A stretch of 64,000 bases of DNA from NCBI RefSeq assembly GCF_008087665.1, contig NZ_CP042912.1, positions 3,410,001-3,474,000 on the forward strand, read 5' to 3'. The translations under genes and the position numbers were made by a program. The notes beneath the pieces are model-generated. The model was given only the letters and a program-made list of their open reading frames with translations. It was not told the DNA's origin and ran no database searches. Source of the stretch: Mariniblastus fucicola (GTDB lineage: Bacteria > Planctomycetota > Planctomycetia > Pirellulales > Pirellulaceae). Every line of letters begins with the position of its first letter. Positions within the stretch are counted from its first letter, which is position 1. Positions 15,377 to 18,194 of the stretch are shown piece by piece.

Positions 15377-15775
15377 CTATTTCTCAAACTCAAAGCTGTC
15401 AGGAATCAGCTCGTCACTGGTCCAACGCAGTCGTTTGGAGGTGTCGTTTGGATCAACGCTGACCACATCGATGTCTTTGCCGAACTCGACAATAAACTGT
15501 CGGCAAGCGCCGCAGGGCGAGGCCAATGGGGAGGCCGCGACGACGACTGCGAGAAAATCCTGATGGCCAGTGGCGACCGCCGCACAAATCGCATTGCGTT
15601 CAGCACAGATCGCCAACCCGTAGGATGCGTTTTCAACGTTACAGCCAGTGACGATTGTCTCACCATCGGCTAATAGCAGCGCAGCGCCGACTTTGAAATT
15701 CGAGTACGGCGCGTAAGCTTTCTCTCGAGCGGCAATCGCCTGCTCGATGAGAAGCGTTTCAGTTTCCATTTTCAT
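15377..15775 (-). CDS. cdd: Cytidine deaminase
   Basis: A homotetrameric-type cytidine deaminase of about 132 residues, converting cytidine/deoxycytidine to uridine for pyrimidine salvage. The zinc site is complete: C-A-E-R-N-A (catalytic Glu and first Cys) and P-C-G-A-C-R-Q. A-Y-A-P-Y-S-N-F-K-V-G-A-A matches the family's N-terminus, so the ATG at 15775 (or two codons later) is preferred; an upstream frame would overlap the previous gene. It starts about 10 bases after the end of the DsbD-like gene and is likely cotranscribed with it. Confidence 0.95.
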   Translation of the reverse strand: MKMETETLLIEQAIAAREKAYAPYSNFKVGAALLLADGETIVTGCNVENASYGLAICAERNAICAAVATGHQDFLAVVVAASPLASPCGACRQFIVEFGKDIDVVSVDPNDTSKRLRWTSDELIPDSFEFEK

Positions 15776-15785
15776 GGAAACCATT

Positions 15786-18194
15786 CTACCCTGCAGGCGA
15801 CGCCATGACATCGGCAGTCGATTTCAACTCCGCATTCGGCGTGTCCTTGCCTTTGACCTGGTTTAATGGAGTCACCTCCGACCAGGAAATACCTGCGGTA
15901 TCGAGAAATCCTTTCGCTCCGACGGTCAAAAAGTTGCCATCGAAGTGATGTGGTTCCTCGCCAGGCCGAAACACGGCGTAGTACGGAATGGCTTTCGCCG
16001 TGTTGCCGAATTCAACCAGCTTGTTTTCAACTTCAGGGGCATCCTTGGTCATATCTGCTTTAAGGACAACGATGTTTTGGGCTTCGAGAACTGACTTGGT
16101 CAGTCGGGTGTTCAGAGCGGACCGCTCATTTACTTTGCAAACCGCTCACCAGTCTGCAGTAAAGTCCACCAAGACCGTCCTGCCCTCTTTGAGATGCTTG
16201 GCGACCGCCGCGTCGCTGTAAGGTTTGTAGTCCAGTTCATACCAGGGAAGCAACGCGCCGAAGGCGAGGAACACGCCAAAGGCGATGATCGCGAAACCGG
16301 CCCCCCAAGCTTTCAACTGTTTCCCGAGCGGTTCATAGAGTTCAGTTTTTCCGATCCACCAACAGCCGAGGCCGATGAACAGCAGCATGGTCAAAACCGA
16401 AGTATTGTATTTCGCGGAAACGCCGTTGATCAGGAAGATTGTGGTCGCGATCAAAACGAATCCCATGATCTGCTTGAACGTCTCCATCCAACCACCTGGC
16501 TTTGGCAGAAAACCAGCCAGTTTCGGAAACGCGCCAATCACAAGGTACGGCAACGCCATTCCCAGCCCCAAAAACAGGAACACCGTGAACGTCATCAAAG
16601 GCGTTTGAGCCATCGCCCACACGACGGCCGGAATCAACATTGGACCGCTGCAAGGAGTTGCCAACAGCGTGGTCAAAATCCCTTTGAAGAATTGACCGAC
16701 GTAGCCTTCCTGATTGGCAAGCTCGTTCGCCTTTTCCGAGTTCACGACGCCGGGCATCGGAATTTCCCACAGGCCGAAGAAGCTGAGACCGAATCCGAAC
16801 ACGATCGCGATCATAATGACTTTGAACGACAGATTGGTGTAGGCTTCTCCCCAGCCAAAATTGAACGTGACGGCCAACGCAGCGAACACCATGAAGACCG
16901 CCAACATCCCCAGCACGAAGACGAAGTTCAGCATAAACACACGGCGAGGGTTCTCACCGGCCATGTGCATGAACGACATAATCTTCAGGCCGACGACCGG
17001 CAAAACGCATGGCATGAAGTTCAAAATGAATCCGGCCACGAAAGCCAATGGAAGCACGACCATTGGCGAATAACCAGACCATGCTCCGGCGTTATTCTTG
17101 TTCTTCTCAGCGGCGTCTTTGACTTTTTCTTCGACCTCGCTGTATTGGACGCCCGTATCGGTCACGCGCAGATTCGGAGACGCCGTCGACTCGACCGCGA
17201 CCGGCACCGTGACTTCCCAGCTGACGCCGCGCGGTTGAGTGCAGCCTCTTGGATCGCAGGTTTGAAATCCAGCGACTCCGCCAAGAACGTATTCTTTGGC
17301 CTCAGCCTCTGCTCCGATGGTGAACGGAATCTTCAGCGTTACCGGGCCTTCATAGTGCTTGACACCCTTCTTGGTTTTCACTGTCGCAGGGTCTTCCGGA
17401 ATGACTTCGACGGCGTCAATCGACCAGTCATTGGCTTTTGTGACCGCCAGCAACGTGAGCTTTTCGACAGATTCTGGCTTTTCAGGATCCGGCGTGTACT
17501 GATAGACGTGAAATCCATCGACCGGCTCCAGCTTCACCTCGACGAATGCCTTGTCGCCTGGCTTGAGTTTGCCTCCGCCCTCGTGTGCCAGCTTGCCAGA
17601 GATCAAAAGATGTGAATCCTCGATTCGCAGCGGCGCGTCACTGTTGATAGCCTCGATGAACCCGCCGAAGTTTGCGACGGCCTCGACACCACCAATCGGA
17701 ACACAGCCCTCCATTCCCGCACAACGCAAACCCGCGTAAGAGACCTCGATCGCGAGCTCTTGAGGATCGACTCCCTCAGCAAGCTGGATCGGAGCACTCC
17801 ATTTTACAGTGCCTTCGTGATATTCGCTGGGGACAGGCGCAAAGGCTTCTTCGACCTCGGAGTGTGGATCCGAATCAGGCTCGAAGTCGCCCGTGATCTT
17901 AAACTTTTCCGAATCTTCAATAATGATTTCGGAACGAGTCGGCCCACCTTCGGGCTGGGTCAGCGAATAGATGTGCCATGGCTTTTCAATCGTGGCCGTG
18001 ACCGTCAGGATGCCTTTGTTGCTGTCCTTGAAACTGCCGAACTTTGCGGTCAGCGTAAATGGATCACCGTCGGCGCCAAAAGCAGGCGTTCCGAACTGCG
18101 CAACCGTGGTTCCTGCAGATACTCCCACCAGCAAGCACGCGGCGAGTGCAACCATCATCAAATGTCGAATCGAACGTATCGAAACTGAATACAT
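15786..18194 (-). CDS. dsbD: DsbD-family thiol:disulfide protein with in-frame UGA, probable selenoprotein
   Basis: A DsbD-family protein carrying electrons across the inner membrane to periplasmic disulfides. After a signal peptide (about 10-30) come two DsbD-alpha-like beta domains, each with a cysteine pair (C-A-G-M-E-G-C and C-D-P-R-G-C). A membrane domain of about eight spans follows, with Cys in N-F-M-P-C-V-L-P and A-T-P-C-S-G-P. Codon 683 (16146-16148) is TGA, placed at D-W-[TGA]-A-V-C-K, where relatives have D-W-C-x-x-C-K. In the same frame, 119 more codons continue a normal thioredoxin fold, including A-D-M-T and the cis-Pro region A-I-P-Y-Y. Read with UGA as selenocysteine the protein has 802 residues; stopping at UGA removes the whole catalytic domain. 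The alternative is a single nonsense mutation from TGC or TGT. cdd follows 10 bases later. Confidence 0.85.
16115..16148 (-). promoter_or_regulatory. Candidate bacterial SECIS element after UGA
   Basis: In the mRNA sense, the UGA at 16146-16148 is followed after 18 nt by GAGCGGTCCGCTC, a perfect hairpin of 4-5 G-C-rich pairs with apex GGUC/GUC (loop G at 16122, U at 16121). The E. coli fdhF SECIS also presents GGUC at its apex about 18 nt after UGA. Here the GU lies about 23 nt after UGA. SelB would bind this loop. The hairpin lies inside the coding sequence, as is usual in bacteria. Confidence 0.7.

Follow-up and report, generated by a model that had tools for sequence, protein, structure and literature searches.

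The locus described here raises the question of whether a UGA codon at the catalytic position of a DsbD-type gene terminates translation or encodes selenocysteine (Sec). DsbD moves reducing power over the inner membrane to exported proteins, and reading by the standard bacterial code cuts this gene off at codon 683. The window, i.e., the whole stretch of 64,000 nucleotides that was analysed (G000:C1:3410001-3474000), belongs to the genome of a marine planctomycete (G000) that consists of a single 6.57 Mb contig. The gene occupies positions 15786-18194 of the window on the minus strand and is made up of 682 codons, a TGA, 119 further codons and a terminal TAG, so that its product would have 802 residues if UGA 683 is selenocysteine and 682 if UGA terminates. 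A first-pass annotation, made from the sequence, had placed this TGA at the first cysteine of a W-C-x-x-C-K motif and had proposed a probable selenoprotein. The codon is seen at 16148-16146 (16146..16148, minus strand), where it aligns with the Cys of homologues and forms the predicted selenocysteine at the first position of U-A-V-C (W-U-A-V-C-K). As had also been described, the frame stays open for 119 codons past the TGA, A-D-M-T and A-I-P-Y-Y included, and the translation of 15786-18194 (around the site, VDFTADW, the UGA and then AVCKVNERSAL) contains no stops besides TGA 683 and the terminal TAG.

Like E. coli-type DsbD, the window protein has DsbD_N, DsbD_TM and C-terminal thioredoxin domains and a gamma fold. 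The Thioredoxin_7 (DsbD gamma) domain (PF13899; residues 659-744, 15963..16220, minus strand) spans the UGA and scores 52.8 bits against a Pfam cut-off of 27, while the DsbD_TM domain (PF02683; residues 379-590, 16425..17060, minus strand) scores 88.8 bits against 27.1 and contains both membrane cysteines, Cys396 and Cys515. The DsbD_N domain (PF11412; residues 212-322, 17229..17561, minus strand), with Cys313 and Cys318, is barely above its cut-off (26.7 versus 25 bits). Further towards the N-terminus, a C-x5-C pair (Cys158 and Cys164) suggests an additional alpha-like domain at about residues 40-190 (17625..18077, minus strand, with approximate borders), a region that has no Pfam match. This probable second N-terminal alpha-like domain and the UGA/Sec in place of the catalytic first Cys are features that distinguish the window protein from E. 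coli-type DsbD. Its cysteines are residues 20, 158, 164, 313, 318, 396, 515, 611 and 686, the last of which (16137..16139, minus strand) is the partner of the predicted Sec683. The structure prediction for the TM and gamma region had a mean pLDDT of 74.9; its best PDB match and 11 of its 13 top matches were DsbD C-terminal domains at E values of ~0.01-0.02, with no PDB fold match at E ≤ 0.001. By sequence, the gamma region matched DsbD entries at E values of 0.001-0.009, ranked behind thioredoxins and protein disulfide isomerases. The NCBIfam DsbD model NF001419 gave 127 bits, below its cut-off of 330, and on these profile scores the window protein is of the DsbD kind, outside the narrower NF001419 subfamily. 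The end of the gene is overlapped by its downstream neighbour in the ORF list (15377..15811, minus strand), which is cytidine-deaminase-like by its sequence. This ORF is also downstream in the same-genus locus L093 and, apart from these two, was absent from all of the 69 loci searched.

Homologues with TGA were recovered at several taxonomic ranks. Matches were found in 136 of 146 genomes of the order (10 of them with one TGA in the match), in 187 of 199 genomes of the family (at least 21 with one TGA) and in 87 of 392 genomes of the phylum (three with TGA, namely G000 and two from another class); because many matches stop short of the active site, these genome counts are not frequencies. TGA homologues are thus present in at least 31 distinct genomes, G000 included (10, 19 more and 2 more). 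Within the genus, TGA was found in three of the 12 other genomes among the matches listed, G311 showed none, and the other eight were outside the listed matches. Reading the site base by base in 69 loci gave TGA in 29 and TGC or TGT in 40, which is the alternation at this codon that the first-pass annotation had named as a check on its proposal. All 29 TGAs were at the same aligned codon, which bears out the earlier argument that the position of the TGA is beyond chance; since these 29 loci were chosen for carrying TGA, their position is informative and their frequency is not. From the 69-locus set we omitted L056 (tRNA region), L060 (a filler stretch) and the short loci L061-L072. Of the latter, the genes of L062-L072 were refetched at greater length and L061, which is the window gene, was kept as L021. 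One Cys row with an in-frame TAA 503 codons upstream (L089) was retained. A further 109 loci, of which 80 came from named records (the best 80 of 580 confirmed relatives), contained 9 TGA and 100 TGC/TGT sites, with three of the nine duplicating earlier loci. The two loci from the other class of the phylum, L213 (G466) and L214 (G551), have TGA at the same codon, each with a hairpin of -11.8 kcal/mol, and no members beyond G466 and G551 were found in that class among 23 genomes searched.

A tree of the 69 rows, built after masking the site, requires 10 changes of the Sec label, seven of which are forced by well-supported branches, and Cys rows are nested in Sec groups (e.g., L100 beside L098 and L085 beside L024). 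The window's own genome has a second DsbD at L057:1876-3936 (G000:C1:1194500-1200500), which is a Cys form with W-C-L-T-C-K and an open frame of 686 codons. Second stops that had been counted in L074 and L075 were rejected, as the alignment there had run into the terminal stop.

The host genome also contains the genes for selenocysteine insertion. The first-pass annotation had recommended a search for selA, selB, selC and selD and had regarded their absence as an argument against its reading. Profile searches recovered selA (555 bits, cut-off 268), selB (356 bits, cut-off 242) and selD (265 bits, cut-off 125), and a tRNA-Sec with anticodon TCA scored 70 bits against a gathering score of 47, in agreement with ARAGORN. 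The tRNA-Sec gene is at G000:C1:3476446-3476545 (L056:6446-6545), ~2.4 kb beyond the right end of the window. Across genomes, selA was above the cut-off in 9 of 10 TGA versus 12 of 27 Cys-form genomes in a first set and in 20 of 21 versus 9 of 12 in a second. Pooled, these are 29 of 31 versus 21 of 39 (Fisher p 3.6e-4, kinship ignored), where the Cys-form class is set by the one fetched dsbD locus having Cys and a second, Sec-type copy is possible. tRNA-Sec scored above 60 bits in 9 of 10 TGA versus 11 of 27 Cys-form genomes. Among the 31 TGA genomes, a selA match was missing in G085 (62% complete) and G198 (86% complete), and tRNA-Sec was missing in one of the ten TGA genomes tested (G057, 70% complete); G085 has tRNA-Sec and G057 has selA.

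Subsequently, the RNA downstream of the UGA was compared with the published bacterial SECIS (bSECIS) model, which has a stem of 4-16 bp, a loop of 3-9 nt with G in the first two loop positions, a distance of 16-37 nt from the UGA and an energy of at most -7.5 kcal/mol. The window has a hairpin of this type at 16113..16129 (minus strand), and its GAGC/GCUC core stem (16127-16115), its GGUCC loop and the 22 nt between the UGA and the start of the loop fit the bSECIS geometry. The hairpin is nevertheless weak, with a local energy of -6.1 kcal/mol versus -7.5 in the model, and the median of the 29 Sec loci is -8.5 versus -2.05 kcal/mol for Cys loci. A selenoprotein scan missed the gene, probably because of this local value, and is thus not a sensitive screen. 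Twelve other hits of the scan in the window, at -7.5 kcal/mol or below, were rejected by eye since their flanks resemble non-coding frames. Over a longer stretch at the window a competing, different fold of -13.5 kcal/mol was predicted, which is not exceptional against shuffles (RNAfold z -1.44, equalled by 16 of 200).

Among the 29 TGA genes, the hairpin starts 15-18 nt and the loop ~22-23 nt past the UGA, with GGU or AGU in or edging the loop. Synonymous-codon shuffles were beaten at the 5% level by 25 of 29 Sec loci versus 3 of 40 Cys loci (kinship ignored), and the window, with a shuffle fraction of 0.077, is among the four Sec loci that missed this level. In a hand-picked register and set of nine sequences (L079 was omitted, its hairpin being equal to that of L077), 90.7% of cells were paired and two pairs changed on both sides. 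The covariation score of this nine-sequence helix was reached by 3 of 500 shuffles (kinship ignored), while neither the number of pairs that changed on both sides (equalled or exceeded in 91 of 500) nor that of further pair types (482 of 500) was remarkable. One of the three Cys loci that beat the shuffles is L100 (G197:C130:100400-105229), a Cys (TGT) homologue with a full SECIS-type hairpin of -8.5 kcal/mol, which would most likely be the outcome of a recent change from Sec to Cys.

With the TGA/Cys alternation, the Sec machinery and the hairpins of TGA genes in its support, the probable-selenoprotein reading has held up, and we predict with high confidence that the product is a DsbD thiol:disulfide reductase with a Sec-x-x-Cys centre in its C-terminal thioredoxin (gamma) domain. 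A nonsense mutation, which would leave either a recent pseudogene or a shortened but functional DsbD that lacks the gamma domain, appears very unlikely by comparison. It would agree with the table 11 reading, the Cys-type paralogue in the genome would make the loss tolerable, and dN after the UGA exceeds dN of the preceding 200 codons in 14 of 15 pairs, i.e., the post-UGA part evolves faster (many dS values being saturated or not computable). Against this, the TGA recurs at the same codon in 29 of 29 TGA relatives from several family-level groups, dN downstream of the UGA is below dS in all 12 computable pairs out of 15 (e.g., 0.022/0.323 and 0.030/0.131), and the partner cysteine C686 is kept in 29 of 29 Sec rows (and in 40 of 40 Cys rows). 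Downstream frame damage in relatives, which the earlier proposal had listed as contrary evidence, was not seen in the TGA genes inspected, all of which are open to the terminal stop. An error of one base in sequencing or assembly, which has only its general possibility in its favour, is not credible given that the same TGA occurs in at least 31 genomes, those of the same genus and family among them, with hairpins typical of TGA genes.

The in-frame UGA and the conserved continuation, taken as a frame alone, would equally be expected if UGA were subject to general readthrough or had been reassigned to Trp or Cys. However, TGA terminates 13 of the 37 non-overlapping ORFs of at least 200 aa in the window; one is the gene itself, and the 12 others indicate that TGA is an ordinary stop here. 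The site moreover aligns with Cys and not with Trp, tRNA-Sec, SelA, SelB and SelD are all present, and the hairpins fit SelB-dependent decoding, so that readthrough or reassignment also seems highly improbable. Somewhat less remote, although still unlikely, is a selenoprotein whose UGA would serve mainly as a selenium-responsive switch between a full and a truncated protein, which is compatible with the Sec-x-x-Cys reductase. The truncated form would retain the TM and N-terminal domains and could be backed up by the Cys paralogue, but the catalytic position of the residue is in itself a sufficient reason for Sec.

For the Sec-x-x-Cys reductase, SelB with Sec-tRNA(UCA) would bind the hairpin and insert Sec as residue 683, the counterpart of the attacking Cys461 in E. 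coli DsbD. The TM cysteines 396 and 515 would then draw electrons from cytoplasmic thioredoxin and hand them to Sec683-Cys686, which would reduce the N-terminal pairs 313/318 and probably 158/164, and the pairs of the N-terminal domains would in turn reduce exported proteins. Under selenium shortage, synthesis would end after 682 residues and leave out the gamma domain, and the Cys-type paralogue of the same genome could stand in.

Selenocysteine is naturally far more acidic than cysteine. In E. coli DsbD gamma, the first Cys has a reported pKa of 10.6, the highest reported for the CXXC of thioredoxin family members, and this value is set by two acidic residues (D455 and E468) and is thought to guard against side reactions (PMC3961690). 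The window protein similarly has acids at these two places relative to the catalytic residue, six positions ahead of it (D677) and seven positions past it (E690). Across the 69 aligned rows, D occupies the position six residues ahead of the site in all 29 Sec rows and in 39 of the 40 Cys rows, and E occupies the position seven residues past it in 27 of the 29 Sec rows and 19 of the 40 Cys rows. The E codon sits inside the hairpin, and thus RNA and protein constraints overlap there. The Sec forms keep these acids yet would hold a far more acidic residue, which allows the reason for the high pKa to be tested cleanly; if the prediction is true, Sec stands where E. coli keeps an attacking Cys of pKa 10.6, and the reactive centre would be tuned the opposite way. 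The residue directly before the site is W in all 40 Cys rows and in 19 of 29 Sec rows, so that W varies in Sec rows only (10 of 29 versus 0 of 40), and the K after the motif varies in four of 29 Sec and four of 40 Cys rows. Three Sec forms (L076, L078 and L095) have other residues in place of both this W and this K (e.g., F-T-G-P-G-U-A-T-C-L).

We then compared the window protein with described selenoproteins, as the first-pass annotation had left it undecided whether a UxxC DsbD was already described. We take cd02953 to be the DsbD gamma domain. A 2008 GOS survey contains, under that identifier, 22 UxxC sequences named 'Trx-like 2 (Thiol disulfide interchange protein)' (PMC2398784, Table 2), and like the window protein these have UxxC in a thioredoxin-like domain. 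They are metagenomic and are listed in that table without a TM domain, host or DsbD context, unlike the full DsbD of the window. The GOS UxxC sequences are probably the same domain as that of the window. A 2026 review covers 119 selenoprotein families or subfamilies, with no plain DsbD entry in its Table 1 (PMC13188914); the nearest entries are PF13098 'thiol:disulfide interchange protein' and TsoB. The PF13098 entry, compared by its table listing, shares its name and the UxxC motif with the window protein, which differs in matching PF13899 and DsbD_TM. TsoB (NF045694), a rhodanese/DsbD fusion-like selenoprotein, has a DsbD-like region to which residues 354-728 align (163 bits, well under the model's cut-off of 805), but it has two Sec in UxxxxU according to the same review table, where the window has UxxC. 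A planctomycete genome paper describes selenoproteins in two strains, and neither 'DsbD' nor 'interchange' was found in its main text (PMC4807772). The UxxC domain of DsbD has therefore probably been described, as the 2008 GOS sequences, whereas a full-length transmembrane Sec-DsbD was not found in the literature searched.

New here are the recurrent switching between Sec and Cys among planctomycetes, the retention of the hairpin in a Cys relative, the presence of a Cys paralogue alongside the UGA gene in one genome and the two tandem UxxC domains of a further relative. The switching, L100 and the same-genome paralogue form a natural series for the gain and loss of Sec. With moderate confidence, we suggest that full-length transmembrane Sec-DsbD proteins recur in planctomycetes as a group that has been repeatedly gained and lost, in which selenium feeds the supply of reductant for exported proteins through a centre tuned opposite to that of E. 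coli, and which includes a tandem Sec-x-x-Cys version.

The tandem relative was found on a contig of a Planctomycetota MAG (L166:1784-4333; JALXBF010000127.1). Its two thioredoxin domains lie in tandem, both with TGA as the codon of the first Cys, and correspond to two Thioredoxin_7 stretches in Pfam; each domain has a GAACGGUC(U/C)GUUC hairpin. A single DsbD-type frame, free of further stops, covers both, and this arrangement, known from one assembly, is a probable double-Sec DsbD.
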